Assembly: GCF_008843165.1 (NCBI RefSeq)
Contig: NZ_CP044427.1
Coordinates: 1,488,001 to 1,552,000 of the forward strand
From: Ornithinimicrobium pratense
GTDB taxonomy: Bacteria > Actinomycetota > Actinomycetes > Actinomycetales > Dermatophilaceae
Direction of reading: 5' to 3'
DNA: 64,000 nucleotides
Shown here: piece by piece, positions 9,554-32,501 of the stretch
Layout: each line of letters starts with the position of its first letter
Position numbering within the stretch: position 1 is the first letter of the stretch
Position numbers and translations under genes: made by a program
Notes under the pieces: model-generated
Database searches by the model: none
Told to the model about the DNA's origin: nothing
Seen by the model: the letters and a program-made list of their open reading frames with translations, nothing else

Positions 9554-12500
9554 CTATCCCTCGTTCACCACCTCCGGCGTGGCCCGCAGGTGATGGTGGA
9601 CGTAGCGACGACCGGCCGCCCGGTAGAACGTCACCGGGGCCCAGGTCTGCTGAGCCGGTGCCTGGATGAGGGCGGTGCGCTCGTCGAAGGGGTGCAGCTC
9701 GAAGGCCTGCACTGGGTCGCGCTCCTCGGTCAGCGGGTGCCGGTCGGTCGAGGTGAGCGTGCGCGCCCCGTCGACCTGGTGGATCTCGATCCGCTCCGCA
9801 CCGCGCTCGTAGGTCCCGGAGGCATCAGCCAGGTTCACCTCGCCCGTCCGGGGCCGCAGGGCCGCGGGCAGCTCGACGTCGGCCAGCTCGTGGAAGATCT
9901 CACCGTAGAGGGAGCGGAAGAGGTCGGCCGTGTTGCCGCCGTTGGTCAGGAGGGCGACGACGACACCGGCCCGGGGCAGCACCCGCAGGAAGGCGGACTG
10001 GCCGATGGTGTTGCCGTCGTGGCCGATCAGCCGCTCACCGTTCCAGTCGAAACGGATCCAGCCCAGCCCCCAGGAGTCGCCGAGGTCGTAGCGGCCGGGC
10101 AGGCGGACCTGCTCCTCCTGCATCGCGCGGACCTGCTCGGTCCCCAGGATGCGGGTCCCGTCGACGCCCACACCGCCGCGGAGGTGGGCGGCGGCGAACT
10201 CGAGCAGGTCGCGCACTCGGGCGTGGATGAGCCCGGCCGGACCTGAGGAGCGGGGGATACCCCAGACGGAGGCCGGCTGCACGTGCTGGTCCTCGCCGCG
10301 TTCGTGCCCCAGCGCCGCGTCGTAGAGCAGCGCCTCCTCTGGCAGGGTGCCGGTGCGGGTCAATCCCAGCGGCGTGATGAGCCGCTCCCGCAGGACGGTG
10401 TCCCACGTCTTGCCGGTGACCTTCTCCACCACCCGGCCGGCGAGGTTAAAGCCGGAGTTGCAGTAGGAGAATGTCTCCCCGAGCGGGTGCAGCTGGGCGG
10501 CGCCGGCCAGCCCCGCGACGTACCGCTCGAGGCAGTCGTCACCCCGGCCGGTGTCGGTGAAGATGTCGCCGTCGATGCCGCTGGTGTGTGTCAGCAGGTG
10601 ACGCAGGGTGACTCGCGCGGCCACGTCCTCGTCCGCGAGCCGCAGCTCGGGCAGCACGTCCCGCACCGGCGCGTCCAGGTCGAGCAGGCCCTCCTCGACC
10701 AGCTGCATGACCAGGGTCGCGGTCCACACCTTGGTGATCGAGCCAATCTGGAAGACGGAGTCCGCACCCACCGAGTGCCCGGTTGTCCGGCTGAGCACGC
10801 CGTGCGCTGCCGCGACCACCTCGTCCGACCCGTCCGGTGCGGCTCCGAGGCGGAGTATGCCAAGCACCGCGCCCGGCACCTCGTGCCGGTCCGCCAACAC
10901 CGAGAGCCGGTGCTCCCAGTGGTCTGCCTCGAGCGCGGGCGCGACTGGGTCGGCCCCGCAGGTGTGGCGGTGCACCCAGTCGACGATGCGGCGGTTGTAG
11001 TCGGCCCGGTGGGATGGGCGGCCGTTGAGGATGAACAGGTGTGCGGCGCCGGGGTAGAGCACCAGCTCGCTGGGCACGTGCCGGGTGCGCAGCGAGCCGA
11101 ACCAGCGCTGCGCCTCGCTCACCGGGCAGCGCACGTCATCCGCACCCTGCAGGATGAGGGTCGGGGTGTGCACCTGGTCGACCAGGTGGATCGGAGAGGA
11201 CTGGTCCAGGTGCTCCCCGTCGGTCCACGGCAGGGCACCCATCTCCAGGTGCGCCAGGAAGTAGCCCATGTCCGAGGTCGTCGCCACGCTCCGGCCGTCG
11301 GACACGATGCCCCCGGGCGCGGCGGCGGCGAAGCGGTTGTCCCGTGAGGTGAGGTAGCAGGTCATGTAGCCGCCGTAGCTGTAGCCGGTCACCGCGAGCC
11401 GGTCCGGGTCGGCGACTCCCTCGGCGACCAGCGCGTCCAGGGGTGCGAGGAAGTCGTCGGCGTCCGCGACGCCCCAGCTGCCGACGGCTGCGGTGTAGAA
11501 GGCCTCGCCGTAGCCGTCGCTGCCGCGCGGGTTGAGCAGCAGCACGCCCCAGCCCGCGGCGGCCAGCACCTGGTGGTACAGGTGCTCGGCGTCTGCAGCG
11601 CCCGACCACGCATTGTGCGGCCCGCCGTGGATGTCCAGCAGCAGGGGCCCGGCCCCGTCGACGTCCGGGCGGCGCAGGAGCCAGCCGTGGATCTCGGTCC
11701 CGTCGGGTGCGGTGAACGTCCGCTCCTGCGGCGTCACCCAGTCCAGATCGGCCAGCAGGGCCGCGCGGTGGTCCGTCAGCTCCTGGACCTTGCCCGTGGC
11801 GAGGTCCAGCAGGGCGACCTCACCGAAGCTCTCCGGCGTGGCGAGGACCAGGGCGGCCCGCTGCCCGTCAGGGGTCAGCGACATCCCGGCCACGGTCGTG
11901 GTGCCCCCGATGACCACCTCGGGCTCCTGCCCCTCGCGCAGCCGGTAGAGGTGGGTGTACCCCCGGTCTCGGAAGCAGACCAGCAGGTCCGCCTCGGTGA
12001 GCATCGCCGGGGTGGCGCCGGGGTATCCGGGGGCGCCGGCCATGACGTTGCGGTCGATCGACGCGGTGAGGTCCTGCCGTCCCGTCCCGTCCAGGCTGCG
12101 CAGCCACAGCTCGGCGTGGCCGCTGCCCGGTTCGGCCGAGCCCAGGCACAGCAGCTGCCCACCGGGGGAGAACGCCACCGGCACCTCGTAGGCGCGGTCG
12201 ATACCGGGCAGTTGGTGGGCCTCACCGGCGCGGTCGAGGCCGACGACGTGCGCGGTGGTCGTCATCGTCATGTCGTTGTCGGGGCCCACGCCGGTGGCGA
12301 AGACGACGGACCGACCGTCGGGTGCCCAGACAGGGGCGTTGGCGTGCAGCTCGCCGGAGGTCAGCTGGGTCACCTCACCGGTGGCGACCTGCACGGTATG
12401 CACGTGCTGCCGGACACCGCCGATGAAACCGGCCCCGTCGGCCTGGTAGAAGAGGTCGCGCGCCACGACGGGAGCCGACGCCGTCTCGCCCGGCGCCAGG

Positions 12501-12892
12501 CCCACCGGGGAGACCGCGGCGCTGAACGCGATGTGCGCGGCGTCCGGGCTCCATACCGGCTCCCCAGCCCCCCACTCCAGATGCGTCAGCTGGCGGGCAT
12601 CACCTCCGGCGCAGGGCAGGAGCCAGATTTGGGGCGGGCCGTCCGCGGCGCGCAGGAAGGCGACCTGGGAGCCGTCGGGGGAGAAGACCGGGGAGCTGTC
12701 GGCCGGGCCGGAGGTCAGCCGACGTGGCGATGACCCGTCGGTGCCGACCTCCCACAGCTCACTGTGGGGACGGTCCTCCTCGCGCAGCACGCTCGTGCGG
12801 ACGTAGACGACCCGGCCGCCGTCCGGCGCGATGGCCGGCTGCTGCGGCTTGACGACGGCGTAGAGATCCTCGATCTGCGGGGGGCGGGGCAT
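9554..12892 (-). CDS. S9 prolyl-oligopeptidase-family peptidase fused to a beta-lactamase-fold serine hydrolase
   Basis: A 1112-residue two-enzyme fusion. Residues about 1-400 are a TolB-like beta-propeller (repeats such as FSPDGSQVAF). About 420-640 is an S9 alpha/beta-hydrolase domain with Ser505 in GYSYGGYM, Asp586 in ADDVRCP and His618 in AAHLF, a complete triad of the acylaminoacyl-peptidase type. About 650-1110 is a class-C beta-lactamase/D-peptidase-fold domain with Ser718-x-x-Lys721 (SITK), Tyr810-x-Asn812 (YCN) and HDG. The frame is open through the junction, so the fusion is real in this sequence. No signal peptide is seen, so both act in the cytoplasm. The ATG at 12892 follows GAGGAG. 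It is divergent from the D-amino-acid cluster and likely trims imported peptides, including ones with D-residues (inference). Confidence 0.87.
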   Translation of the reverse strand: MPRPPQIEDLYAVVKPQQPAIAPDGGRVVYVRTSVLREEDRPHSELWEVGTDGSSPRRLTSGPADSSPVFSPDGSQVAFLRAADGPPQIWLLPCAGGDARQLTHLEWGAGEPVWSPDAAHIAFSAAVSPVGLAPGETASAPVVARDLFYQADGAGFIGGVRQHVHTVQVATGEVTQLTSGELHANAPVWAPDGRSVVFATGVGPDNDMTMTTTAHVVGLDRAGEAHQLPGIDRAYEVPVAFSPGGQLLCLGSAEPGSGHAELWLRSLDGTGRQDLTASIDRNVMAGAPGYPGATPAMLTEADLLVCFRDRGYTHLYRLREGQEPEVVIGGTTTVAGMSLTPDGQRAALVLATPESFGEVALLDLATGKVQELTDHRAALLADLDWVTPQERTFTAPDGTEIHGWLLRRPDVDGAGPLLLDIHGGPHNAWSGAADAEHLYHQVLAAAGWGVLLLNPRGSDGYGEAFYTAAVGSWGVADADDFLAPLDALVAEGVADPDRLAVTGYSYGGYMTCYLTSRDNRFAAAAPGGIVSDGRSVATTSDMGYFLAHLEMGALPWTDGEHLDQSSPIHLVDQVHTPTLILQGADDVRCPVSEAQRWFGSLRTRHVPSELVLYPGAAHLFILNGRPSHRADYNRRIVDWVHRHTCGADPVAPALEADHWEHRLSVLADRHEVPGAVLGILRLGAAPDGSDEVVAAAHGVLSRTTGHSVGADSVFQIGSITKVWTATLVMQLVEEGLLDLDAPVRDVLPELRLADEDVAARVTLRHLLTHTSGIDGDIFTDTGRGDDCLERYVAGLAGAAQLHPLGETFSYCNSGFNLAGRVVEKVTGKTWDTVLRERLITPLGLTRTGTLPEEALLYDAALGHERGEDQHVQPASVWGIPRSSGPAGLIHARVRDLLEFAAAHLRGGVGVDGTRILGTEQVRAMQEEQVRLPGRYDLGDSWGLGWIRFDWNGERLIGHDGNTIGQSAFLRVLPRAGVVVALLTNGGNTADLFRSLYGEIFHELADVELPAALRPRTGEVNLADASGTYERGAERIEIHQVDGARTLTSTDRHPLTEERDPVQAFELHPFDERTALIQAPAQQTWAPVTFYRAAGRRYVHHHLRATPEVVNEG

Positions 12893-12954
12893 GGTGTCTC
12901 CTCGGTCGTGGGCGTCCGGTCCACGGGCAGCGTCGCACCTGCGGCGCGGGCCGG

Positions 12955-12976
12955 ACTTCGTCAAAACGGACGAAGT
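12955..12976. promoter_or_regulatory. Inverted repeat, candidate operator between divergent promoters
   Basis: Perfect 8-bp arms ACTTCGTC and GACGAAGT are separated by AAAACG. The repeat lies 63 nt upstream of the S9-fusion start and about 80-180 nt upstream of the M20 gene. The core TCGTC-N6-GACGA recurs 61 nt upstream of oppA (26667-26682). The regulator is unknown; the PucR-type protein at 17798-19420 is the nearest candidate. Confidence 0.55.
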
Positions 12977-13135
12977 GGGCCGCGGCGGTTGGTGTAGCCG
13001 GCCACCGCGCAGCCCGGCCACCCCGACCTAGCCTGGGGACGACCCCGAGGAAGGATGCCGACATGCGCAGCGAAATCGACACCGACGCCAAGGGCATCGA
13101 CCCCGAGCACACGGACCCCCATCACAACGGACGTG

Positions 13136-14227
13136 ATGGAGACGGCCGTCATGGTGCAGGATCTGCGCACCCTGGTGGAGTGCGAGTCGCCGTCGGGGGA
13201 CGTCGCGGCCACGACGCGCTGCGCAGAGGTCGTCGCTGAGCTGGGGGAGCGATGGCTCGGCGCCCCGCCCCAGGTCCTGCGCACCGGTGAGCGCGTCGCC
13301 CTGCTCTGGTCCTGGGAGGGCCCACAGCGCCGGCTCGTCCTGGGTCACCTGGACACGGTGTGGCCGATGGGGACCCTGGCGCGCTGGCCCTTCACCCACG
13401 ACGCCCAACGCGCGAGCGGCCCCGGGTGCTTCGACATGAAGGCGGGCATCGTCCAGGCGATGCACGCCATCGCCAGCCTGGAGGACCCCTCCGGGCTGGC
13501 GCTGCTGCTCACCTCGGACGAGGAGATCGGCGCCCCCGACTCGCGCTCCCTGATCGAGCAGGTGGCGCAGGGGATGAGCGCGGTCTACGTCCCCGAGGCC
13601 AGCGCCGCTGGCGCCCTGAAGGTGGAGCGCAAGGGGGTCTCCCTGTATGCGGTGCAGGTCGCCGGTCGCGCCGCGCACGCGGGGCTGGAGCCTGAGCTGG
13701 GCGTCAACGCCAGCATCGAGCTCGCCCACCAGGTACTGGCCGTCGCTGGCCTCCAGGACCTCTCGGCCGGCACCACCGTTACCCCGACCGTGCTGTCGGC
13801 CGGCACGACCACCAACACCGTCCCGGCGGCGGGCCAGATCCGGGTGGACGTGCGTGCCCGCACCGAGGCGGAGCAGGACCGCGTCGACGCAGCCATGCGT
13901 GCGCTGCGGCCCGTCCTGGACGGAGCCTCGCTCACGATCGAGGGCGGCAAGAACCGGCCACCCCTTGAGCGGCGCCGCTCCGAGGCACTGCTCGCGCGCG
14001 CCGTGCACGCCTACCGCGAGCTGGGGTTTGGCGAGCTCGGCGCCGTCGCAGTCGGTGGGGCGTCGGACGGCAACTTCACCGCCGGACTGGGCATCGCGAC
14101 CCTGGACGGACTGGGTGCGGTGGGCGACGGGGCGCACGCCGAGGGGGAGTGGGTCTCGGTGCCCGACCTGCCGCGACGGGCTCGGCTGCTTGCCGCGCTC
14201 GTCCGACCCGACGAGGCAGCGCGGTGA
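13136..14227 (+). CDS. M20-family metallohydrolase, probable N-acyl (N-succinyl)-L-amino-acid hydrolase
   Basis: A 363-residue dinuclear zinc hydrolase of the M20/ArgE/CPG2 group. Seen motifs: GHLDTVWP (metal His and following Asp), GPGCFDMKAG (bridging Asp), TSDEEIG (catalytic Glu pair) and a dimerisation domain beginning KVERKGVSLY, with HA near the C-terminus. With the following GNAT and racemase genes it matches the desuccinylase of the D- to L-amino-acid pathway known from Geobacillus; glutamate carboxypeptidase activity is the alternative. ATG 13136 begins the family-like N-terminus. An in-frame ATG at 13055 exists, but its extra 27 codons do not look coding, while another frame between 13063 and about 13125 does, so the true N-terminus may be frameshifted. 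Confidence 0.8.
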   Translation: METAVMVQDLRTLVECESPSGDVAATTRCAEVVAELGERWLGAPPQVLRTGERVALLWSWEGPQRRLVLGHLDTVWPMGTLARWPFTHDAQRASGPGCFDMKAGIVQAMHAIASLEDPSGLALLLTSDEEIGAPDSRSLIEQVAQGMSAVYVPEASAAGALKVERKGVSLYAVQVAGRAAHAGLEPELGVNASIELAHQVLAVAGLQDLSAGTTVTPTVLSAGTTTNTVPAAGQIRVDVRARTEAEQDRVDAAMRALRPVLDGASLTIEGGKNRPPLERRRSEALLARAVHAYRELGFGELGAVAVGGASDGNFTAGLGIATLDGLGAVGDGAHAEGEWVSVPDLPRRARLLAALVRPDEAAR

Positions 14228-14239
14228 CTTTGTTGCAGT

Positions 14240-14260
14240 CGCACGATTCACCGTCGTGCG
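14240..14260. promoter_or_regulatory. Inverted repeat between M20 and GNAT genes
   Basis: Arms CGCACGA and TCGTGCG, 7 bp each and perfect, are separated by 7 nt. The site lies 13 nt after the M20 stop and 22 nt before the GNAT start. It could be an operator, a weak terminator or a processing hairpin. No U-tract follows. Confidence 0.35.
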
Positions 14261-14281
14261 CCCTCGACCACGCTCATAGAT

Positions 14282-15139
14282 GTGGGTACGACAGTGAACG
14301 TGAGCGCCGCCGCAGGTGACCTCGCCCTGCGCACGGCCCAGCAGTGCGGGCTCACTGTCGAGATGATCCACGACCCCACCGATGCGCACGAGGCGGCCGC
14401 GCTGCTACAACAGATCTGGCGCACGCCCCTCGGTGCCCCGGTCCCGCCGGAGCTGCTCATCTCTCTGGACCACACCGGCAACTATGCGGCCCTGGCCCGG
14501 CATGAGGGCCGGATCGTCGCGGCGTCGGCCGCCTTCCGGGCTGGGGACGGATCCCCCCACCTGCACTCCCACATCACCGGGGTCGCCGACAGTCACCGCG
14601 GCCGGTCCGTGGGGTATGCGATGAAGCTGCACCAGCGGGCCTGGGCGATCGACCACGGCTACTCGGTCATCTCCTGGACCTTCGACCCCATGCAGGCGCG
14701 CAACGCCTACTTCAACGTGGTCAAGCTCGGCGCCAGGCTGGACACCTACCTGCCTGACTTCTACGGCCCGATGGGTGACGCGATCAACCAGGGTGCGCTC
14801 AGTGACCGCGGCTTGCTGAAGTGGGACCTTTTCGCCCCCGCGTCCGCCCGCGACCTCGGCACCCCCGAAGCGCCCGGGATCCCCGGCGGCCGGACGGCGC
14901 CGGTCCCGCTGCTGGAGGTGGCTGACGACGGGGCGCTCCTGCTCCCCAGGACCTTGGGCGCGCCGCTGCTGACCATCGCCGTCCCCGCTGACGTCGGGCA
15001 CCTGCGCAGGACCGACCCAGACCGGGCGCTGCGCTGGCACCACGGCGTCCGGGACGCCTTCGTGGCCGCCTTCGCGCGGGGCTACGAGGTCATCGCCTTC
15101 CACCCCGACCACTCTTACATCCTGCGAAAGACTGACTGA
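14282..15139 (+). CDS. GNAT-superfamily acyltransferase (COG3375 type), probable D-amino-acid N-succinyltransferase
   Basis: A 285-residue predicted acyltransferase. The CoA-binding region is around HSHITGVADSHRGRSVGYAMK (residues about 95-115), where RGRSVGYA is a variant of the GNAT Q/RxxGxG/A loop, followed by SWTFDPMQARNAYFNVVKLGA typical of COG3375. In Geobacillus a homologous gene next to an N-succinylamino-acid racemase and an M20 hydrolase acylates D-amino acids; the same trio is present here. The GTG at 14282 lacks a clear ribosome site, and GTG at 14294 is an alternative. It stops 2 nt before the racemase gene, so the two are cotranscribed. Acyl donor and amino-acid range are inferred. 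Confidence 0.75.
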   Translation: MGTTVNVSAAAGDLALRTAQQCGLTVEMIHDPTDAHEAAALLQQIWRTPLGAPVPPELLISLDHTGNYAALARHEGRIVAASAAFRAGDGSPHLHSHITGVADSHRGRSVGYAMKLHQRAWAIDHGYSVISWTFDPMQARNAYFNVVKLGARLDTYLPDFYGPMGDAINQGALSDRGLLKWDLFAPASARDLGTPEAPGIPGGRTAPVPLLEVADDGALLLPRTLGAPLLTIAVPADVGHLRRTDPDRALRWHHGVRDAFVAAFARGYEVIAFHPDHSYILRKTD

Positions 15140-15141: not shown

Positions 15142-16248
15142 ATGCGTCTGCACCGAGCTGAACTGTTCACCGTCGAGATGCCCCTGGTCTCGCCGTTCGC
15201 CACGTCCTTCGCGGTGCAGACGCACCGGCAGCTGACCCTCCTGCGGGTCGAGACCGACGCGGGGGTCGGCTGGGGGGAGTGCGTGGCCATGGCCGACCCC
15301 CTCTACTCCTCGGAGTACCTGGCCGCTGCAGGCCAGGTCATCAGCGACTTCCTGCTGCCCAGGCTGAGGGGCAAGGACCTGTCCGCCTCCGCGGTCAGCC
15401 ACCTGCTCGGCCCGGTCAAGGGGCACCGGATGGCCAAGGCGACGGTCGAGATGGCGCTGCTGGACGCCGAGCTGCGGGGGGCCTCGATGAGTCTGAGCGA
15501 CTACCTCGGCGGAGTGCACGACCGGGTCCCCAGCGGGGTCAGCGTCGGCATCATGGACAGTGTCGAGGAGCTGCTCGCCGCGGTCGGCGGCTACCTGGAG
15601 GAGGGCTACCAGCGGATCAAGCTCAAGATCCAGCCCGGGTGGGAGCTGGAGCCGGTACGCGCGGTGCGCCGGGAGTTCGGTGACATCGCGCTGCAGGTGG
15701 ACGCCAACGCCGCGTTCACGACCGCGGATGTCCGGCTCTTCCAGCAGATGGACGAGTTCGGGCTGCTGCTGGTCGAGCAGCCGCTGGAGGACGAGGACCT
15801 CACCGATCACGCCTTTCTCGCCGCGCGGATCAGCACCCCGGTGTGCCTGGACGAGTCGGTCGTCAGCGCCAAGTCGGCCGCGGACGCCATCGCCCTGGGT
15901 GCCTGCTCGGTGGTCAACATCAAGGCCGGCCGGGTGGGCGGTTATCTGGAGGCCCGGCGGGTGCACGACGTGTGCGCCGCCCATGGCGTCCCGGTCTGGT
16001 GCGGGGGCATGGTGGAGACCGGCATCGGTCGGGCGGCGAACATGGCCCTGGCCGCGCTGCCCAACTTCCGTCTGATCGGCGACACCTCGGCCTCCGACCG
16101 GTTCTTCACGACCGACATCATCACCCAGCCGTTCGTGATCGAGGACGGGTATGTGGCGGTGCCGCGGGGCCCCGGGCTGGGGGTCGAGGTCGACGAGCAG
16201 GCCCTCGCCGCCGTGACGGTTGCCCGCACCGAGATCGCACTGGGCTAA
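15142..16248 (+). CDS. N-acyl(succinyl)amino-acid racemase, enolase superfamily (MenC/OSBS-like)
   Basis: A 368-residue enolase-superfamily enzyme that racemises N-acylated amino acids by proton exchange at the alpha carbon. Catalytic lysines are Lys162 in the KLK pair (160-162) and Lys261 in NIKAGRVGG. Magnesium ligands are Asp187 (VDAN), Glu212 (VEQPL) and Asp237 (LDES). Length and segments such as GWGECV, LYSSEY and WCGGMVETGIGRAAN closely match the Amycolatopsis N-acylamino-acid racemase as I recall it. Automatic pipelines often call this o-succinylbenzoate synthase, but no menaquinone genes are nearby and the M20 and GNAT partners support racemase. Starts with ATG 2 nt after the GNAT stop. 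Confidence 0.88.
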   Translation: MRLHRAELFTVEMPLVSPFATSFAVQTHRQLTLLRVETDAGVGWGECVAMADPLYSSEYLAAAGQVISDFLLPRLRGKDLSASAVSHLLGPVKGHRMAKATVEMALLDAELRGASMSLSDYLGGVHDRVPSGVSVGIMDSVEELLAAVGGYLEEGYQRIKLKIQPGWELEPVRAVRREFGDIALQVDANAAFTTADVRLFQQMDEFGLLLVEQPLEDEDLTDHAFLAARISTPVCLDESVVSAKSAADAIALGACSVVNIKAGRVGGYLEARRVHDVCAAHGVPVWCGGMVETGIGRAANMALAALPNFRLIGDTSASDRFFTTDIITQPFVIEDGYVAVPRGPGLGVEVDEQALAAVTVARTEIALG

Positions 16249-16289: not shown

Positions 16290-17801
16290 TCAGGCCGGGG
16301 CGCCGCGCACCGGCCGCCCGGGCAGGGCGTCCAGCATGTGCTGGTTCCGGATGAGCGGCACGCCTCCCACCAGCAGGTGCACCACGCCCTGGCTGGGGCG
16401 CACCGGGTCCAGGTAGGTGGCCGCGTCGGTCAGCGTTCCGGGGTCCAGGACCACGACGTCTGCGTCCGCGCCGGGGGCCAGATGGCCCTTGGTCCGGGCG
16501 GCGGGCGTGGCCCCGTCGAGCACCCTGGCCGGCAGGTAGGAGCAGCGCCGGAAGGCTTCGAGCCAGGTCCACAAACCCGTCTCCAGCACCATGCGCCGCA
16601 ACGACCGGGCGAAGGTGCCCGCGGTCCGAGGATGGGTCAGCCCGCCTTCGGGCAGCGGCCAAGTGTGGGAGTCCCACGTCCGGTCGGGCCAGGTGATCGG
16701 CATCGCGTCGCTGGCGACGATGGCGTCGGGGTAGCTCAAGGAGCGCAGCAGCAGCTCCTGGTCGTGCGGATCCTGCTCGTCGAGGAAGGTGACGACACAC
16801 GGTGCGCCCGGGTCCTCGGCCCGCACCTGGGCCAGCCGTCGCGCGTCCTGGATCCGCTCGCCGGTGGCCACGAGCACCAGGTCCTGCGGGGTCAGGTCCC
16901 AGCGGTGCAGCGCCTCGGGCGCGAGGAAGGCGGCTCCGATCGCGGTGGACCCGGCCCCGTAGGGATAGCACTCGACGCTCACCCGGCTGCCCGCGGCCTG
17001 GTGCCTCTGCAGGCTGGCCAGCACCCGATCCACGTGTCGGCGGGAGGTGCTGTTGACGTGGCAGTGGTGCATCGCCGCACCGGTCTCCGCCGCCACGATC
17101 CCGATCTCGTCCGAGCCGTCGACGGGGGTGGTTGGGTCGGACTCGACGATCTCGCGCACGTGGGTATAGACGGGCACCCCGGCCTCGGCGGCCAGGCGAC
17201 CGACTCCGAGGAACTCGGCCGGGTCACTGGAGGGCGCATACCCCAGCAGCACCCCGATGCCCAGGGCACCGTCGGCCAACTCGCTGCGCAGCAGCCCCAA
17301 CCACGTCTGCAGTTCCCGGGTGCTGGACGAACGCTGCCAGTCCGGACGGGCCAGCAGCTGCAGCGAGGCCTGGATGTCGGCCGTGGGGGTGATCCCCGCA
17401 TGTGCTGCGGCCCGGGCCGAGCTCCACGAGGCGGAGAAGCCGTAGTGGAGCGGGCGGCCCTGCGCCGCAGCGTCGGCGTAGGCCTTGGCGATCGGCATCA
17501 GACCTGACTCCAGGTCGAGCGCGGTGGTGACGCCGTCCATGGCCTGCAACCGCATGCCGGCGACAGAGTGCACGTGGCTGTGCAGGTCGACGAAGCCCGG
17601 CCCGACGACGAGGCCGGAGACGTCCAGCACCGTTGCGTCGTCGGTCGCGGGAGCGGCGCCGTAGCCCTCCGGCCCGGTGCCCGCAGTCGCAGGCACCACT
17701 GCGGCGATCCGCCCGTGCTCAACGTGCACATCGGCGATGCCGTCGAAACTGGTGCCCGGGTCGATGACCCGTCCACCGCTCAGGATCAGTCTGGTACTCA
17801 T
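16290..17801 (-). CDS. N-acyl-D-amino-acid deacylase (D-aminoacylase family amidohydrolase)
   Basis: A 503-residue metal-dependent amidohydrolase. Landmarks are GFVDLHSHVHS with metal ligands His74 and His76, GVTTALDLESG, THVRE, HHCHVNS, IVASDAMP containing the catalytic Asp, and a C-terminal composite beta-domain (GHLAPGADADVVVLDP). It would release D-amino acids from N-acyl-D-amino acids or D-terminal dipeptides in the cytoplasm. The start ATG at 17801 overlaps the PucR stop as ATGA, so the two are coupled. It is the last gene of the long leftward unit beginning at oppA and converges on the racemase. Confidence 0.85.
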   Translation of the reverse strand: MSTRLILSGGRVIDPGTSFDGIADVHVEHGRIAAVVPATAGTGPEGYGAAPATDDATVLDVSGLVVGPGFVDLHSHVHSVAGMRLQAMDGVTTALDLESGLMPIAKAYADAAAQGRPLHYGFSASWSSARAAAHAGITPTADIQASLQLLARPDWQRSSSTRELQTWLGLLRSELADGALGIGVLLGYAPSSDPAEFLGVGRLAAEAGVPVYTHVREIVESDPTTPVDGSDEIGIVAAETGAAMHHCHVNSTSRRHVDRVLASLQRHQAAGSRVSVECYPYGAGSTAIGAAFLAPEALHRWDLTPQDLVLVATGERIQDARRLAQVRAEDPGAPCVVTFLDEQDPHDQELLLRSLSYPDAIVASDAMPITWPDRTWDSHTWPLPEGGLTHPRTAGTFARSLRRMVLETGLWTWLEAFRRCSYLPARVLDGATPAARTKGHLAPGADADVVVLDPGTLTDAATYLDPVRPSQGVVHLLVGGVPLIRNQHMLDALPGRPVRGAPA

Positions 17802-19420: not shown

Positions 19421-19511
19421 CCCGGTGGGCTCCCAGGGCATGGTGATGGGCTCGGACCGACCCGACGATAGCAACGACACCGTCAGGTCTGTCGGAGGGC
19501 CCGCGGCTGCG

Positions 19512-24865: not shown

Positions 24866-24959
24866 CGGTGCAGGCCTTCTTTCTGACGGGTGGCGGTATG
24901 TGGGCGTGGGCGGGGGATAGAGGGGCGGGCCGGCCGGGCTGCCCGGCCGCCCCAGGACG

Positions 24960-26606
24960 TCACTGGGTGGACCGGATCGAGGACCCGTCGATCTCGCCGC
25001 TGGCGGCATCGAGGGTGACGCCGTTCAGGTAGTTGGAGGCGACGATGTCGAACATGGGGGCGACGTCAACGTTCTGGATCAGGGCGGTCTCCGCCTCGAT
25101 CCACAGAGCGCAGGCCGCCTCGATCTCACCCTGGACGTTGGCCTCGGCACTCTTGGCCGTGTAGGTCTCGTTGTCGATGTGGGCGAAGTTGGTGCCGTCG
25201 GGGGCGGCCGGCCCGGAGAGGAAGGCGAGCAGCTGCGAGGGCAGGTCGACGGTGACCGGAATCCACCCGGCGTCCCAGTCGCCGGAGGCGAAGAGGACCT
25301 CGTTGAGCTGGGTCGCGGCGATCGTGGACGGGCTCATCTCGGCCCCGACCTCGCGCCACTGCTGGGAGAGCAGCTCGGCGGCCGCCGCCAGCTCGTCGCC
25401 GCCGCGCTGGGCGAAGATGAACTTCAGGCTGAGCCGGTTGCCGTCCTTCTCCCGGATCCCGTCGGCGCCGCGGACCCAGCCGGCGTCGTCGAGCATCGCG
25501 TTGGCGGCCTCGACGTTGTAGGCGGGCAGGTTGCCGCTGACGGTGTCGCCCGGGCACACCTTGGGCTCGAGGGTGACCAGGCCGGTGGAGACCTGGCCGG
25601 CTGCGCCGGCGCCCACGGCCGCGACCATCTCGATGTCGGTGGCCGCGATCAGGGCCTTGCGCACGGCGGGGTCGGCGCCGGGATGGCCGGGGCCCTGGTT
25701 GAAGAAGGTCTCCCCAAGGGGTGAGGCCGCGCCATACCGGTCCAGGCCCGCGGCCTGCACCCGCTCCTCGTCGCCGGGGCTGACACCGGCGATGTTGACC
25801 TCACCGGCGAGCAGCAGGTTGGCGGTCGTGGTCATGTTGGGAATGACGCGGAAGACGAAGGTGTCAGGGACGCCCTCGCCCTCGAAGGGCTCCTGGCGCG
25901 GACCCCAGCTGTAGTCCTCGTTGCGGGCGAAGGTGTAGCTGTCGTTGGGCGCGGCCTCCTCCAGCACCCACGGGCCGGTGCCGGCGGTGGCCTGGGCCAG
26001 CGTCTCGCGGTCATCCAGGCCGGAGCGGCAGACCATGAAGACCGAGGTGAGGTTGCTCAGCAGGAAGGCGTTGGGGGCGCTGACCTCGACGGTGACCGTG
26101 CCGGCCTCGTCGTCGGCGCTGGCCGTGGCGTCTGTTGGCACCATGATGCCCAGCAGGGGGGATGCGTTCTCCGGGTCGGCGATGAAGGAGATGTTGTCCG
26201 CGGCATCGGTCGCGGTGAACGGCGTGCCGTCGGCGCAGGTCGCGTCCGGGTTGAGGCTGAAGGTCACCGACGTGGGGGTGACCTCCCACTCAGTGGCCAG
26301 GTTGGGCACGATCTCACCGTCCGGACTGGTGCGGACCAGTGAGTCGTAGGCCATCCGGCCCACGCCCCGGGTCACCTGCAGCACCGTCATGGCCGGGTCC
26401 AGGTTGCCGGGGTCGTCGCCGATGGCCATGGTGATCGTGCCCCCGGCCTCGCCAAGCTCGGCGGTGCCTGTCTCACCAGGGCTCTGGGTGGCGGCGCCGG
26501 TCCCATTGCCGTCGGGGGAGCCGGGGGAGTCGGAGCTGTTGCTGCACGCCGACAGCACGAGGGCTCCGCCCATGGCGATGGCGAGGAGCGGTCGAGTGGT
26601 GCGCAT
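24960..26606 (-). CDS. oppA: Peptide ABC transporter substrate-binding lipoprotein
   Basis: A 548-residue SBP_bac_5 (OppA/DppA) protein. The signal peptide ends in LVLSAC with lipidated Cys21, followed by a Ser/Gly/Pro-rich linker. The mature part shows the family pattern ALRKALIAATDIEMV-like segment (VRKALIAATD) and YNVEAANAMLDDAGW. The ATG at 26606 follows AGGAGG. It is the first gene of the leftward opp operon and would capture peptides outside the cell. A TCGTC-N6-GACGA dyad lies 61 nt upstream. The ligand cannot be read from sequence. Confidence 0.9.
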   Translation of the reverse strand: MRTTRPLLAIAMGGALVLSACSNSSDSPGSPDGNGTGAATQSPGETGTAELGEAGGTITMAIGDDPGNLDPAMTVLQVTRGVGRMAYDSLVRTSPDGEIVPNLATEWEVTPTSVTFSLNPDATCADGTPFTATDAADNISFIADPENASPLLGIMVPTDATASADDEAGTVTVEVSAPNAFLLSNLTSVFMVCRSGLDDRETLAQATAGTGPWVLEEAAPNDSYTFARNEDYSWGPRQEPFEGEGVPDTFVFRVIPNMTTTANLLLAGEVNIAGVSPGDEERVQAAGLDRYGAASPLGETFFNQGPGHPGADPAVRKALIAATDIEMVAAVGAGAAGQVSTGLVTLEPKVCPGDTVSGNLPAYNVEAANAMLDDAGWVRGADGIREKDGNRLSLKFIFAQRGGDELAAAAELLSQQWREVGAEMSPSTIAATQLNEVLFASGDWDAGWIPVTVDLPSQLLAFLSGPAAPDGTNFAHIDNETYTAKSAEANVQGEIEAACALWIEAETALIQNVDVAPMFDIVASNYLNGVTLDAASGEIDGSSIRSTQ

Positions 26607-26666
26607 GTCCAACCTCCTGGGGTCGTGGGGTGCAGACATCGTCGCCCTCGGTGCCCGGCCCCTTCA

Positions 26667-26682
26667 TCGTCCGATCCGACGA
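26667..26682. promoter_or_regulatory. Inverted repeat upstream of oppA, candidate shared operator
   Basis: TCGTC and GACGA are separated by CGATCC. This is the same core and spacing as the longer repeat at 12955-12976, and it lies at nearly the same distance from its start codon (61 versus 63 nt). Arms are short, so chance is not excluded. Confidence 0.4.
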
Positions 26683-26817
26683 GCGGGCGTGCCCGCGTTG
26701 GTCCACACGCACAGCAGGCCCCGTGCTGGAGCTCAGCGACCGTAGGCATGGGGCGCGAGTAGTTCGTCCGCTGTGTGGGACACGGTCAGAAACCGCAGGC
26801 CGTGACCGGCCCGTCCG

Positions 26818-27663
26818 TCAGCGCCCAGCGCGGACGAACCTCAGCTCCTGGCCCGGCCGCAGCTGGGCACAGCGGTCGACGTCGAGATCGTCGACGTAGC
26901 CGATGACCGGGTAGCCACCAGTGACCGGGTGGTCGGCCAAGAAGAGCACGGGCAGGCCCGAGGGTGGCATCTGGATCGCGCCGCGCAGCATGCCCTCGCT
27001 GACCAGCTCACCCTCCCGCAGCCGCTGCAGCGGCTCACCACTGAGCCGGACCCCGACCCGGTTGGACTGGCTGTCGACGGAGTAGGTCTGGCTGGTCAGC
27101 AGCGCCCACGCCTCGTCGTCGAACCAGTCGCGCCGCGGGCCGGGGGTCACCGCGATCTGCATCAGCTCGTTGGTCGGCTCGGGGACGGGGGCGACGTCGA
27201 CGCCGGGGACCGGCCGCTCCGTGGTGCCCACGGGCAGCACATCACCGGAGGACACCACGGGCGGGCCCAGGCCGGAGAGGATGTCGGTGGCCCGGCTGCC
27301 CAGGACCGGCTCGACGTCGATGCCTCCGCGCACCGCCAGATAGGTGCGCAGACCGGTCTCGGGTATGCCGAAGGTGAGGGTCTCCCCGGCGCGCAGCTGG
27401 AAGGCGGCCAGGTGGGGGACACCCGGGCAACGGGCGCCGCTCGTCGCCAGCGTGATGTCGGTGTCGGGGCTCAGGGACAGCCCGCCCAGGGTCAGCTCCA
27501 GCGTCGCCAGCGTGGGGTGGTTGCCGATGAGCGCGTTAGCCAGCCGGTGGGCGCCGCGGTCGCACGCGCCAGACCGGCCGATGCCCAGCGCAGAGTGCCC
27601 CGGCCGGCCGAAGTCCTGCACGGTGGTCAGCGCACCGGGCTCGATGATGGTCAGCTCGGTCAC
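26818..27663 (-). CDS. pxpC: 5-oxoprolinase subunit C
   Basis: A 281-residue PxpC (KipA-like) subunit. Hallmarks are GALTTVQDFGRPGHSALGIGRSGACD near the N-terminus (key part QDFGRPG), YLAVRGGI, SNRVGVRLSG, and HPVTGGYPVIGYV near the end. With PxpA and PxpB it opens 5-oxo-L-proline to L-glutamate at the cost of ATP. The GTG at 27663 overlaps the pxpB stop as GTGA. The 211-bp gap downstream contains the oppA promoter region. Confidence 0.9.
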   Translation of the reverse strand: MTELTIIEPGALTTVQDFGRPGHSALGIGRSGACDRGAHRLANALIGNHPTLATLELTLGGLSLSPDTDITLATSGARCPGVPHLAAFQLRAGETLTFGIPETGLRTYLAVRGGIDVEPVLGSRATDILSGLGPPVVSSGDVLPVGTTERPVPGVDVAPVPEPTNELMQIAVTPGPRRDWFDDEAWALLTSQTYSVDSQSNRVGVRLSGEPLQRLREGELVSEGMLRGAIQMPPSGLPVLFLADHPVTGGYPVIGYVDDLDVDRCAQLRPGQELRFVRAGR

Positions 27664-28277
27664 GGCTGCCCCACGAAGCGGACGGCGGTGCCGGGCACGA
27701 GCAGCGCCGGCGGGTCGCGGTCGATGTCGAAGACGTCGACCACGGCGGTTCCGATGAGCTGCCAGCCGCCGGGGGACTCCCGCGGGTAGACCCCGGTGAA
27801 CTCCCCGGCGATCGCCACGGCCCCGGCTGGCACCTTGGTCCGCGGGCTGGACCGGCGGGGCGTGTCCCAGGCGAACTTCGACCCCGCCAGGTAGCCGAAG
27901 CCGGGCGCGAAGCCGCAGAAGGCCACCGTCCAGTCCTCCTCCTGGTGCCGCTGGACCAGCTCCTCAGGTGAGCACCCGAGCAGCTCGGCCGCCTCGGCCA
28001 GGTCCTCCCCGTCATACCGGACCGGGACCTCCACGGTGGAGCCCTCCTGCTGTCCGTGCTCCGCGGGCGGCACCTGTCGCAGCTGGGACCGCAGATCCTC
28101 CAGATTGGTCTCGCGGTCGGCGACCACGAGGATCGTCCGCCCCGCAGGGACCAGGTCGAGGACCGGCAGGTCGGCGTCCAGCAGCGCCGCATACTGACGC
28201 AGCACGTCCTCCAAGGTGTCCAGCTCCAGCAGCAGCCCCCGCGAGCCGCTCGGCAGGATCCGCATCGCCTCCCCCAT
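27660..28277 (-). CDS. pxpB: 5-oxoprolinase subunit B
   Basis: A 205-residue PxpB (KipI-like) subunit with VPVRYDGEDL, FCGFAPGFGYLAG and PRTKVPAGAVAIAGEFTGVYP (key part AGAVAIAG), and the closing SPGGWQLIGT. It is close to the usual 210-230 residues. The ATG at 28277 was chosen because it overlaps the ribosome-binding region at the end of the upstream gene; ATG at 28265 is an alternative. It is translationally coupled to pxpC. Confidence 0.9.
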   Translation of the reverse strand: MGEAMRILPSGSRGLLLELDTLEDVLRQYAALLDADLPVLDLVPAGRTILVVADRETNLEDLRSQLRQVPPAEHGQQEGSTVEVPVRYDGEDLAEAAELLGCSPEELVQRHQEEDWTVAFCGFAPGFGYLAGSKFAWDTPRRSSPRTKVPAGAVAIAGEFTGVYPRESPGGWQLIGTAVVDVFDIDRDPPALLVPGTAVRFVGQP

Positions 28278-28279
28278 GC

Positions 28280-29524
28280 TCACCCCGTGATCAGCTCGAT
28301 GGCGGGGCGGACCGAGTTGACCGCCAGGTAGATGGTCACCAGCCAGGCGACGGTGCCGATGCCCGCGAGCCACTTGGGGTAGTCGTAGCCCTGCAGCAGA
28401 TCCCGCCGCCGCCAGGCGACCCACAGCATGACCCCGATCCCGACCGGCAGCAGGATCCCGTTGAAGGCGCCCGCGAAGACGAGCAGCTGGGCCGGGGCCG
28501 CCCCGATCGACAGGTAGAGGATGAGCGAGACGACGATGAAGCCGATGACCATGAAGTTGGTCGTGCGCGGCGTGGTCTTCTCCCGGGAGGTCAGGAAGGT
28601 GACCGTGGTGTAGGAGACGCCGATGACGCTGGTCAGCGCGGCGGCGGCGAAGACCACGCCAAAGAGCCGGTAGCCGACGGCCCCGGCCGCAGCCTCGAAC
28701 GCGCTGGCCGCTTGGCGCTCCGGGTCCAGGGCGTGGCCGGCGCTGACCACACCGAGGATGGCCAGGAAGAGGATGACCCGCATCACGCCGGTGACGATGA
28801 TGCCAGTGACCGCACCCTGGGTGAGCGTCTTGAGGTGACCCGGGCCGGAGATGCCCGCGTCCAGCAGGCGATGGACCCCGGCGTAGATGATGTAGCCGCC
28901 GATCGTGCCGCCGATGAGGGTGGTGATCGCCAGGGCGTTGATCTGCTCGGGCAGGACGGTGTTCCTCAGCGCGTCGCCGACCGGGGGACCGGAGGTGACT
29001 GCGATGTAGAGGGTCAACAGGATCATCACGGCACCGAGGAGAACGACGACGCGGTCCATCGCCACCCCCGCCCGCTTGGACAAGAAAATGGCGATGGCCA
29101 GGGCCGACAGCAGGACCGCGCCCAGCCGCATGTTCATGTCGGTCATGATGTTCATGCCGAGCCCGGCACCGCTGATGTTGCCGATGTTGAAGACGAGCCC
29201 GCCGAGCAGCAGCAGGAAGGCCATGAGATAACCCAGACCCGGCAGGGTCGCGTTGCCCAGCTCCTGCGCCCGCATGCCCGAGATGCCGATGACCCGCCAC
29301 ACGTTGGTCTGGATCGCGATGTCGACCAGGATCGAGATGAGGATGGCGAAGGCGAAGGCGGCGCCGAGCTGGACCGTGAAGTTCGTGGTCTGGGTGATGA
29401 AGCCAGGCCCGATCGAGGACGTGGCCATCAGGAAGATCGCGCCGAGCAGGGTGCCCCGGCCGGTCGCCGCCTTCAGGGCGGACTGACCGTCGACCTTCGG
29501 GTCGCGGGTGGTGTCTTGCGGCAT
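28280..29524 (-). CDS. NRAMP-superfamily transporter of the YcsG type, probably not a metal carrier
   Basis: A 414-residue membrane protein with about 11 transmembrane segments. It is recognisably NRAMP-like, but the first segment reads SSIGPGFITQT where metal carriers have the DPGN motif, and segment 6 lacks the MPH motif (GGYIIYAGVH instead). In Bacillus subtilis the related ycsG sits with pxp genes. Import of 5-oxoproline or a similar organic acid is therefore more likely than manganese uptake (inference). ATG 29524 was chosen because GGAGG precedes it; GTG 29536 is possible. It stops 2 nt before pxpB. Confidence 0.8.
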   Translation of the reverse strand: MPQDTTRDPKVDGQSALKAATGRGTLLGAIFLMATSSIGPGFITQTTNFTVQLGAAFAFAILISILVDIAIQTNVWRVIGISGMRAQELGNATLPGLGYLMAFLLLLGGLVFNIGNISGAGLGMNIMTDMNMRLGAVLLSALAIAIFLSKRAGVAMDRVVVLLGAVMILLTLYIAVTSGPPVGDALRNTVLPEQINALAITTLIGGTIGGYIIYAGVHRLLDAGISGPGHLKTLTQGAVTGIIVTGVMRVILFLAILGVVSAGHALDPERQAASAFEAAAGAVGYRLFGVVFAAAALTSVIGVSYTTVTFLTSREKTTPRTTNFMVIGFIVVSLILYLSIGAAPAQLLVFAGAFNGILLPVGIGVMLWVAWRRRDLLQGYDYPKWLAGIGTVAWLVTIYLAVNSVRPAIELITG

Positions 29525-29657
29525 CTTCGCCTCCACAGGGCCAGGGTATGTCGGTTGACGCGTGGTGCACTCTAGCCGGGAGCGGGCGCGCTTGGGGGCG
29601 GACCGGGCGCTCGACTCCGGACTACGAGGCGGAGCCCGGGCCGGGATGACCGCCGGC

Positions 29658-30443
29658 TCAGGGCACGGCGTAGACCACGTCCTTGATGTCGGTGACCAGC
29701 ATGTGTCCCGGAGCGTGGGTGAGAGCGATCTGCGGCCGGGACTCCAGCACCATGGCCTGCGGGGTCACCCCGCAGGCCCAGAAGACCGGCACGTCACCGT
29801 CCTCGATCGTCGGCGCCTCGCCGTAGTCGGGGGAGTTCAGGTCCTCGATGCCGAGCCCCGCCGGGTCGCCCACGTGCACCGGCGCGCCGTGCACGGCGGG
29901 GTAGCGCGAGGTGATCCGCACCGCGTCGGCCACCTGTGCCGCGGGGATCGACCGCATCGAGACCACGAGCGGGCCCCCGAGGTCGCCGGCGGGCAGGCAG
30001 CGGGTGCTGGTGCGGTACATCGCCACGTTGGTCCCCGCGTCCTGGTGCCGCATCGGTATCCCCGCCTCGACCATGGGGTGCTCGAAGGTGAACGAGCAGC
30101 CGATGAGGAAGGTCACCAGGTCATCGCGCCAGTGCTCGCGCACGTCGCTGGCCTCCTCGACCAGCTCCCCCTCCTTCCAGACGCGGTAGCGCGGGACGTC
30201 CACCCGGATGTCCGCCGCCGGGTCGCCATACACGGCCGAGCCCTGCGGCGCGCGGACCTGCCCGGCCTCCAGCACCTCAAGCACGGGGCAGGGCTTGGGG
30301 TTGCGGGTGGCGAAGAGCAGCATGTCGAAGGCCACGGCCTGGGGCACGCTGATGATGTTGGCCTGCGCGTAGCGCGCGCACCAGCCGGTCGTCGGGACCT
30401 GCAGCCCCTGGGCGAAGAGGGCGCGGGCCTCTGCGGGCGACAT
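29658..30443 (-). CDS. D-glutamate-cyclase-family protein (DUF1445, putative hydro-lyase, YcsI-like)
   Basis: About 261 residues. Family motifs are [26 protein letters not shown] ([14 protein letters not shown]), [14 protein letters not shown] and FWACGVTPQ and PGHMLVTD near the C-terminus. The family shares a domain with human DGLUCY, which cyclises D-glutamate to 5-oxo-D-proline, and Bacillus YcsI lies beside the pxp genes as here. A link to pyroglutamate metabolism is likely; the exact reaction is not proven for bacterial members. ATG 30443 matches the family N-terminus; ATG 30494 would add 17 residues. Confidence 0.82.
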
Positions 30444-30586
30444 CGCGGCCCGCTCCGCGCGGTCGGGGATGGTGTGCACGTTCAAGGTCCTCATTTCCTG
30501 GTATGCCGTGCCGGCCGGATACCGTGGTGCGTGCGATGGGTCGCCGGCCGGATGGGTCGGATGGGTCGGGTCGGATGGGGGTAGGG

Positions 30587-31633
30587 TCAGCCAGCCTGCG
30601 TGAGCCTGGGCCGCATCGTGGATGACCAGGCTTTGACGACATCGTGGGGCAGGTCGTAGCTGCCCGTCCAGGTGTGGGCGGGGAAGAGGAAGGCGCGCTG
30701 CATACCCAGCTCGTCGCGGGCGCGTAGGAGGCGGTCGGCGCACTGCTCGGGAGGGCCGAAGAGGCCGTAGGCGTCCAGCAGGTCGTCGACCAGCGCGTCC
30801 GGCAGGCTCGCCGGGTCGGTCAGGTCCGGCCCGGTGCCCAGCTCCGGCAGGTCGAGGCCCGAGGCGGACAGCCACCGTAGGTTGGAGCGGCTGGGGTAGT
30901 GCAGCCAGGGCTGGCCGTCGCGGAACCAGCTGCGCGGCCAGGCGCGGACCTCGTCCCGGGTGCCTAGCCCGATCGGCACGATGAGGGTCTCGACGAAGTC
31001 GCTGTCCGGGCCGTAGGGGTCGGGGCGGCCGGCCCGCTCGGCCCCGGCGCGCACGTGCGCACGTGCGGCCTGGACCCCGTCGGGGTGGAGCCCGACGAGC
31101 ATCAGCACGCCGTCGCCGACCGCGCCGGCCAGCTCCAGCAGGCGAGGGCCGGAGGCCAGCACGTGCACCAGGCCCGCGCGGCTGCGCGGGTGGTGGAAGA
31201 GCTGCAGCTCCCGCCCGCCGTGGTCGGCGCGGCCCTCGTGCAGCAACCCGCGCAGGGCCCGCACGGCCTCACCGAGCACGGCTCTCTTGGCCTGCGCCTC
31301 GCCGGCCTTCTCCACCGACAGGAAGCCCGGGGCGACCGTGAGCTCTGACCGGCCAGGGGCCAGCTCGTCCAGCGAGGCGACGAGGGACGCGAGGACGATC
31401 GGGTGGCGGGTGACCACGTTGGACGTCGCGGGGAAGAGTCGCAGACGGTTGGTCGCCATCCCCATCGCGGCCAGTGCAAGGTAGGCGTCGCGGCCGGTGT
31501 GGTGGTGGTCGGGGACACCGATGCCGTCCAGGCCGGCCCGCTCGACCTCGGTGGCGAAGGTAGCGAGCTCGGGCAACGGCGCGCCCAGGGGGACGCGCAG
31601 CGCCACCTCGAGCGGGTGGGACGGTGCTGACAT
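30587..31633 (-). CDS. LLM-class flavin-dependent oxidoreductase
   Basis: A 348-residue luciferase-like monooxygenase-fold protein using FMN or F420. The N-terminal barrel shows [11 protein letters not shown], then [26 protein letters not shown] and the C-terminal [15 protein letters not shown]. The ATG at 31633 follows GGAGG. It is the first gene of the leftward unit leading to the pxp genes and is divergent from pxpA. Its substrate and its link to the neighbours are unknown. Confidence 0.82.
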
Positions 31634-31700
31634 GTGACCTCCTCGTGACGGACACTAACATCGAGGAAAGACGGCCCTAGATCGAGCAGCAGGAGCACCT

Positions 31701-32501
31701 ATGAGCACCGATACCCGGACCTCAGAGACCACCGAGACCGCGAGCATCGACCTCAACGCCGACCTGGGCGAGGGTCTAGGCAGCTGGTCGATGGGGGACG
31801 ACCTGGCCCTGCTCGACATCGTCACCAGCGCCAACGTCGCCTGCGGCTTCCATGCCGGCGACCCCTCGATCATGCGGTCGGTCACCCAGGCAGCAGCTGA
31901 CCGGGGCGTGGCGATCGGTGCGCACGTGGCCTACCGCGACCTGCACGGCTTTGGCCGCCGCTTCATCGACATGGAGCCCGACGCGCTGCGTGATGAGGTG
32001 CTCTACCAGATCGGCGCGCTGGAGACCTTCGCTCAGCGGGCCGGCACCACGATCGCCTACTGCAAGCCGCACGGCGCGCTTTACAACACGATCGCCAAGC
32101 ACCCCGAGCAGGCAGCCGCCGTCGCCGAGGCGCTCAGCGAGTTCCGCTCCGGCCTGCCGGTGTTGGGCCTGCCGGGGTCGGTCTGGCTCGGCGTCGCCCA
32201 GGAGACCGGCCTGACGCCGGTGGGGGAGGCCTTCGCCGACCGCGCCTACACCCCCGACGGATCTCTCGTCTCCCGTCGCGAGCAGGGCTCGGTCCTGCAC
32301 GAGGCTGGGACCATCGCCGAGCGCTGCGTGGCGATGGCCAAGGGTGAGGCGATCGCCGACGTTCAGGGTGGTGAGCTGGTCCTCGACGCGCGCTCGATCT
32401 GCGTTCACGGGGACACCCCGGGCGCCGTCGAGATTGCCCGCACGGTCCGCGAAGCGCTCGCCGGAGCCGGGGTCCAGGTCGAGCCGTTCGCCCGGGCCTG
32501 A
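31701..32501 (+). CDS. pxpA: 5-oxoprolinase subunit A (LamB/YcsF family)
   Basis: A 266-residue PxpA. Hallmarks are IDLNADLGEGLG (residues 16-27), SANVACGFHAGDP, GAHVAYRDLHGFGRR and YCKPHGALYN, and the C-terminal SICVHGDTPGAV. It acts with PxpB and PxpC in ATP-dependent hydrolysis of 5-oxoproline. It is transcribed away from the other subunits, separated by the 67-bp divergent gap in front of the flavin oxidoreductase. The ATG at 31701 follows AGGAG. Confidence 0.92.
   Translation: MSTDTRTSETTETASIDLNADLGEGLGSWSMGDDLALLDIVTSANVACGFHAGDPSIMRSVTQAAADRGVAIGAHVAYRDLHGFGRRFIDMEPDALRDEVLYQIGALETFAQRAGTTIAYCKPHGALYNTIAKHPEQAAAVAEALSEFRSGLPVLGLPGSVWLGVAQETGLTPVGEAFADRAYTPDGSLVSRREQGSVLHEAGTIAERCVAMAKGEAIADVQGGELVLDARSICVHGDTPGAVEIARTVREALAGAGVQVEPFARA

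Follow-up and report, generated by a model that had tools for sequence, protein, structure and literature searches.

A candidate PucR-controlled salvage cassette for D-amino-acid peptides or N-acyl compounds, adjoining a separate 5-oxoproline operon in Ornithinimicrobium pratense

We analysed a 64,000-nucleotide window of the complete 3.54 Mb chromosome of Ornithinimicrobium pratense (contig NZ_CP044427.1, positions 1,488,001 to 1,552,000; GC content 71%), with the gene region at window positions 9554–32501 as the subject. The region consists of two units, block A (9554–26798) and block B (26818–32501), and we consider it rather probable that block A is one PucR-controlled cassette for the salvage of D-amino-acid peptides or N-acyl compounds, with block B a separate 5-oxoproline operon. 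Block A makes up about three quarters of the region, is found in many soil actinobacteria and is probably under one regulator. In a more specific form, towards which the evidence tips only slightly, it would belong to an actinobacterial PucR regulon with the operator TTCGTC-N6-GACGAA, dedicated to the uptake and cleavage of D-residue peptides and to the inversion of the D-residues via N-succinyl intermediates, which would also be the native role of the Amycolatopsis N-acylamino acid racemase/N-succinylamino acid racemase (NAAAR/NSAR). A preliminary description of this DNA had listed the gene families of the region, each of which was found in place by Pfam or NCBIfam profile matches. Its proposal that they form one integrated system held for the importer, the hydrolases, the amidohydrolase (AMH), the trio of M20 peptidase, GNAT acyltransferase and racemase, and PucR; it failed for the 5-oxoprolinase genes, whose adjacency to block A is not conserved in the loci and genomes examined. 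The features are listed below in window coordinates, G002 being a sister genome.

9554..12892, minus strand: S9 peptidase fused to an S12/beta-lactamase-fold hydrolase, block A; 1112 residues, start of the longest open reading frame (ORF) at 13021, presumed catalytic motifs in both halves
12957..12974: candidate operator TTCGTC-N6-GACGAA, exact, in the divergent S9-S12/M20 promoter; core also exact at this position in G002
13136..14227, plus strand: M20 peptidase, block A; ORF from 13055, likely start ~13136, nearest solved relative carboxypeptidase G2
14198..14215: weak candidate operator in the 3' end of the M20 gene, before GNAT; 2/12 mismatches, inner repeat also in G002
14300..15139, plus strand: GNAT-type acyltransferase, block A; ORF from 14282
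15142..16248, plus strand: N-succinyl/N-acylamino acid racemase of the NSAR/o-succinylbenzoate synthase (OSBS) type, block A; 63% identity to 1sja
16290..17801, minus strand: amidohydrolase AMH, PRK09061 subfamily, block A; distant relative of D-aminoacylase and N-acyl-D-Glu deacylase
17798..19441, minus strand: PucR-type regulator (HTH_30, GGDEF_2), block A; ORF from 19525, likely start ~19441
19512..20891, minus strand: stand-alone S12/beta-lactamase-fold hydrolase, block A; by eye without apparent signal peptide
20888..21898, minus strand: DppF ATPase, block A
21895..23858, minus strand: DppC-DppD permease-ATPase fusion gene, block A; frame disrupted at ~22.69–22.75 kb
23855..25009, minus strand: DppB permease, block A
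24960..26639, minus strand: DppA peptide-binding protein, block A; lipoprotein-like start
26666..26683: weaker candidate operator upstream of dppA; 2/12 mismatches, inner TCGTC-N6-GACGA exact and kept in G002
26798..26830: junction of blocks A and B; 43.4 kb extra at this point in G002
26818..27663, minus strand: PxpC-like 5-oxoprolinase subunit, block B
27660..28277, minus strand: PxpB-like 5-oxoprolinase subunit, block B; start approximate
28280..29536, minus strand: Nramp-family transporter (YcsG/PxpT type), block B
29658..30494, minus strand: PF07286 (D-Glu_cyclase/putative hydro-lyase) protein, block B; start approximate
30587..31633, minus strand: luciferase-like (F420/FMN) oxidoreductase, block B
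31701..32501, plus strand: PxpA (LamB/YcsF) 5-oxoprolinase subunit, block B

Block A is a genuine unit. The genes from AMH to DppA (16290–26639, minus strand) are nearly contiguous, and the neighbours of AMH were counted at ≥70 bits over 80 AMH loci carrying 17 genus-level labels. Domains of the S9/S12 fusion were found near AMH at 51 loci, GNAT at 43, M20 at 41, NSAR at 40, DppA at 37, DppB and PucR at 31 each, DppC at 30, DppF at 28, DppD at 27 and the stand-alone S12 hydrolase at 12, with NSAR spread over 7 labels and GNAT over 9; AMH stood alone, with no cassette gene near, at 9 of the 80. In two draft genomes of the same genus (G028 and G030) the full set of 12 genes lies within ~17 kb, at 38–65% identity and in a different arrangement. 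Viewed from the racemase, GNAT was present at 8 and M20 at 6 of the 10 NSAR loci outside the O. pratense genome. No strong PucR match was seen at 50 of the AMH loci; when the genomes of 26 of these were searched, every one encoded a PucR orthologue elsewhere (48–58% identity), and NSAR lay beside PucR at 12 of the 20 such PucR loci that were fetched. The remaining 8, all from Amycolatopsis with NSAR already at the AMH locus, showed no cassette gene around PucR. Chance grouping of block A is ruled out by this recurrence with AMH and NSAR and by the promoter palindrome described below. A two-locus split was observed in Nocardioides, Microbacterium and others (L160–L174), one locus having AMH, in some cases with S12 and Dpp, and the other NSAR and PucR, mostly with M20, GNAT and S9/S12. 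The O. pratense genome also carries a second set (L107, G000:C1:2816000-2835999) of Dpp, NSAR, AMH, M20 and GNAT-like genes, ~27–50% identical by tblastn, with regulators of the GntR/FCD and AsnC types and without an exact TTCGT-N8-ACGAA site. An AMH tree built by a quick method placed O. pratense and G002 on a different branch from G028 and G030. AMH may have been transferred or duplicated long ago, and because the split has a support of only 93%, below the 95% required for a star, and there are long branches elsewhere, the choice between the two is left even.

The search for a shared operator started from the inverted repeat at 12957–12974. For the 150 bp preceding AMH at the 80 loci, each of the 1024 possible five-base inverted repeats was counted at each of 13 spacings (13,312 in total), and the three best are one and the same palindrome, TTCGTC-N6-GACGAA. 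At ≤1 mismatch, TTCGT with a spacer of 8 occurred at 43 of the 80 loci (34 exact), TCGTC with a spacer of 6 at 40 and GTTCG with a spacer of 10 at 37, compared with maxima of 10–12 in three mononucleotide-shuffled sets. Across the AMH sites TTCGT and ACGAA are constant and the spacer is variable. Within 150 bp of the gene start, the TCGTC repeat preceded PxpA at 0 of 43 loci and PxpB at 2 of 43; over a longer stretch (200 bp plus 30 bp into the gene) the counts were 1/43 for PxpA, with one mismatch, 3/43 for PxpB, 2/43 for PxpC and 41/80 for AMH. The exact core TTCGT-N8-ACGAA was present at 41 of 154 loci, to which the 40 PxpB control loci contributed none. Altogether 90 exact cores were collected from the loci and the window: 34 before AMH, with 37–107 bp from site centre to start, 23 before PucR, 16 before S9/S12 (some up to 473 bp off), 6 before GNAT, 3 before M20 and 8 before none of these. 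Of the 90, 84 lie outside matched cassette genes, the only genes annotated there. A shorter motif considered first, TCGTC-N6-GACGA, was set aside as weak alone, codon phase favouring spacers of 0, 3, 6, 9 and 12; it occurs genome-wide at 81 sites versus 31 in the reversed control.

As operators, the sites before dppA and GNAT are weak. Both have 2/12 mismatches, as do five other places in the window, and a single mismatch is seen at one coding place; since two-mismatch matches are thus not rare in the window, these two sites carry little weight alone. Their inner repeat TCGTC-N6-GACGA is exact and present in G002 as well. A one-mismatch copy of the palindrome lies at 42607, inside the gene for a tricorn-like protease (1260 residues; S41, PDZ and PD40 domains; 39250–43032), ~7 kb past the region.

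The protein likely to bind the palindrome is PucR. The window protein matches PF13556 (67 bits, cut-off 27) and PF17853 (30.7 bits, cut-off 24.5) and no further Pfam family at E ≤ 0.001, indicating a PucR without the PucR N-terminal domain. The AMH site is present at 24 of the 30 AMH loci with a strong PucR match versus 16 of the 50 without one, these loci being related. At eight Amycolatopsis loci with an orphan pucR gene, the full palindrome is exact in six, 63–66 bp upstream of the estimated pucR start, and of the other two, one has an exact core close by and the other a two-mismatch site only. This pattern would look like the one expected of PucR self-regulation, and the exact palindrome upstream of six of eight orphan pucR genes is the reason to regard PucR as the likely regulator, which would act as an activator or a repressor.

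Based on sequence comparison, a sequence of reactions can be proposed. DppABCDF would import peptides, which the S9-S12 fusion and the stand-alone S12 hydrolase would cut inside the cell; AMH would strip acyl groups off N-acyl-D-residues, GNAT would succinylate the freed D-amino acid, the NSAR-type racemase would invert the N-succinyl-D-amino acid, and M20 would take the succinate off the L-isomer, rendering the inversion one-way. PucR would bind TTCGTC-N6-GACGAA in the cassette promoters. In Geobacillus kaustophilus, a GNAT succinyltransferase, an NSAR and an M20 desuccinylase reportedly constitute a D-to-L pathway, in work by Sakai et al. of 2006. Block A has the same three enzyme types adjacent and would follow the same one-way logic; compared by enzyme type, not by sequence, it differs from the Geobacillus operon in that the trio is joined by an importer, S9/S12 hydrolases, AMH, PucR and the palindrome.

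The window racemase, which GNAT and M20 adjoin, aligns with the Amycolatopsis NAAAR/NSAR (1sja) at E 3.5e-147 and 63% identity, and five Amycolatopsis cassettes (L014, L058, L009, L015 and L013) in turn encode a racemase that matches 1sja at 97–98% identity. The segments KLK, VDAN, EQP, LDES and NIK are conserved, which we take to hold the paired catalytic lysines and the metal-binding acids of an NSAR/OSBS-type enolase. That the racemase serves as the genome's only MenC is ruled out by a separate actinobacterial MenC (431 bits, cut-off 288), in whose span the sole TAG is its own stop, preceded by an open frame of 361 codons; the racemase is therefore free from menaquinone synthesis (OSBS function). 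No PF06792 match was found in the O. pratense genome.

The S9-S12 fusion is a single open frame; going by the database copy, 1112 residues long, it begins at 12892 and not at 13021. GxSxGG, Asp and His are retained in the S9 half and SxxK, YxN and HxG in both S12 domains, presumably the catalytic motifs. The two kinds of domain are joined in a single open frame in G002 and two Kutzneria loci, and are neighbouring but unfused in G030 and one Arthrobacter locus. Novelty of the fusion was rejected, as 1461 proteins match the stretch spanning the fusion point and at least 120 of them combine PF00144 with PF00326, in a search limited to proteins of similar length, where split forms are under-represented. 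Judged by eye from the first 45 residues, the hydrolases have no evident signal, so that cleavage would be cytosolic, and DppA is lipoprotein-like. AMH scores 617.7 bits against NF006560 (PRK09061; cut-off 340) and aligns with D-aminoacylase and N-acyl-D-glutamate deacylase (1m7j, 3gip) at HxH, His, His, Asp and HPRxxGTF. The names given to its homologues are amidohydrolase, D-glutamate deacylase (one), N-acyl-D-aspartate/D-glutamate deacylase (several), cytosine deaminase-related and imidazolonepropionase-like.

A number of observations weigh against block A as a PucR-controlled cassette for D-residue salvage. The 80 AMH loci include 28 from Amycolatopsis and 15 from Microbacterium and hence are not independent, and AMH itself is patchy, being found in 4 of 198 genomes of the order (E ≤ 1e-100, up to 7 candidates being scored in each) and in 4 of 31 genomes of the genus (E ≤ 1e-60), O. 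pratense included. Upstream of PxpB, where the DNA is coding and the genomes are related, unrelated repeats reached up to 26 of 43 loci, implying that kinship inflates repeat counts. The exact core occurs only twice in the whole 3.54 Mb genome, once in block A, which equals the 2 of the reversed control; it was found at none of the AMH loci of Microbacterium (15), Nocardioides (9) and Arthrobacter (4), nor at the fetched PucR loci of Nocardioides and Microbacterium, and the AMH site is missing at 6 of the 30 PucR-containing AMH loci. With respect to chemistry, AMH and GNAT would be opposed on an N-acyl-D-residue and form a futile pair unless their acyl groups differ, AMH acting on non-succinyl ones. 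AMH also lacks the metal-bridging Cys of D-aminoacylase, GNCG of 1m7j/3gip aligning with LESG, and has beside this position an invariant Glu (residue ~98 of the window protein) that all 90 aligned rows (88 distinct genes) share, for which reason its chemistry or metal site may differ from that of D-aminoacylase. Finally, dppCD of the window is split by the frame disruption, which may reflect a genuine mutation or an error in sequencing, whereas in G002 it is one fused gene of 654 residues (L090:667-2631).

It is unlikely that block A acts on N-acylated or other L-peptides, with racemization a minor or promiscuous activity. The trio is missing near many Microbacterium and Nocardioides AMH loci, as this would predict, yet in such genomes NSAR is found with PucR at a second site (the 12 of 20 loci above). 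Acyl-peptide hydrolases are among the solved relatives nearest to the S9 half and M20 is closest to carboxypeptidase G2; the regular company of GNAT and NSAR, and a MenC that relieves the racemase of menaquinone synthesis, argue in the other direction. We consider it quite improbable that block A specifically recycles peptidoglycan stem peptides, with their D-Ala and D-Glu. Among solved structures, the S12 hydrolases do resemble DD-peptidases and D-peptidases, and the nearest solved relatives of AMH and M20 are Glu-handling proteins, but no amidase, LD-carboxypeptidase or Mpl family was present among the Pfam matches of the scanned cassette proteins, and the NSAR kinetics in the available part of one paper concern N-acyl Met, Phe and phenylglycine (PMC8142540).

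The trio, the Pxp system and each single family are known already. A literature search returned, among the matches listed, no paper on the gene neighbourhood or regulator of the Amycolatopsis racemase, and nothing among them on an AMH-trio-Dpp-PucR cassette or the palindrome, most subscription papers being outside its coverage. The native task of this racemase is said to have been argued over, by Palmer in 1999 and Taylor Ringia in 2004. Its position in a conserved and apparently co-regulated cassette, together with an importer, D-type hydrolases and a candidate operator, makes its native role directly testable and points to a way in which soil actinobacteria may use D-residue peptides as nutrients. 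In the literature, as far as the accessible portions go, the enzyme is treated as a biocatalyst or a promiscuity case (e.g. PMC8142540).

A single 18-gene system of blocks A and B was rejected on the strength of the AMH loci, the PxpB loci, the separation in the sister genome and the differing genome distribution. No block B gene lies near AMH at any of the 80 loci within the fetched flanks (10 kb on both sides in 67). Around PxpB, the only block A match was a DppF-like ATPase, seen in 3 of the 20 genomes of the order picked for long contigs and at 2 of the 20 further PxpB loci from the same genus. PF02682, the PxpB family, is present in 140 of the 198 genomes of the order and 30 of the 31 of the genus, versus the 4 of 198 with AMH; in the three other genomes of the order with AMH, all drafts, PxpB is on a different contig in two and none was shown in one. 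G002 is collinear with the window over 3536–26798 and 26830–32521 save for the 43.4 kb in between, and the junction at 26.80–26.83 kb is therefore a breakpoint; AMH and PxpB are 55 kb apart on one contig in G002 and 11 kb apart in the window. Ten genes scanned from the extra DNA of G002 include molybdopterin oxidoreductase, CoA-transferase, dehydrogenase, solute-binding protein and malic-enzyme families. No tRNA was found at the junction in the window or in three G002 slices, and a comparison of five promoter regions from the two blocks showed no common 10-mer. A terminator and promoter scan of the gap between the blocks found 0 with 0.0 expected and is uninformative.

Thus the neighbourhood search in relatives, which the preliminary description had proposed, revealed block A recurring across genera and blocks A and B not together; co-conservation of the two, on whose absence that description was to fall, is absent at the AMH loci, at the PxpB loci and in the sister genome. 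Its route from D-Glu to L-Glu through cyclase and oxoprolinase fails on chemical grounds, since ring opening of 5-oxo-D-proline returns D-Glu without inverting the alpha carbon, and the notion that D-peptides and pyroglutamate are handled by a joint system is hereby corrected. One system channelling D-Glu and pyroglutamate from imported peptides to L-glutamate is consequently very improbable, even though the blocks are co-directional and only 178 bp apart here, making read-through possible, share a contig in G002, and have a counterpart in G017, where an NSAR gene lies ~30 kb from the pxp operon: the near absence of the inner operator repeat before PxpA adds to the locus counts, the 43.4 kb at the junction and the chemistry.

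Block B, as judged from its genes, is best explained as a separate pxp/ycs-type operon serving to take up and hydrolyse 5-oxoproline (pyroglutamate). It encodes PxpA, PxpB and PxpC together, with PF03746, PF02682 and PF02626 above cut-off. PxpA also passes its subfamily model NF003814 (349.9, cut-off 226), and PxpB (143.1 vs 145.55) and PxpC (193.5 vs 500) fall below the NCBI equivalog cut-offs. The PxpA, PxpB and PxpC homologues and the Nramp-family transporter resemble those of pxpTABC in Corynebacterium glutamicum and pxp/ycs in Bacillus subtilis; compared with these, block B adds a PF07286 protein, identified by family match, and a luciferase-like oxidoreductase. The B. subtilis operon presumably contains ycsI (PF07286) itself. 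No GntR-type gene was found in block B of the window. The transporter and PF07286 accompany PxpABC at 4 of 20 loci from the order, and the oxidoreductase, which the preliminary description did not mention, occurs in block B of four genomes of this genus (O. pratense, G002, G017 and G014). According to the available part of one study, C. glutamicum depends on pxpTABC to grow on 5-oxo-L-proline, and PxpT, an NRAMP family member, is homologous to YcsG (PMC13274462). For D-glutamate cyclase, which turns D-Glu into 5-oxo-D-proline, a section title in a mammalian paper points to the DUF4392 region (PMC5339696).

On both flanks the region is bordered by sugar-use cassettes (463–9417 and 32749–38333) with solute-binding protein, permease, GH3, GH1, LacI, ROK and epimerase genes.

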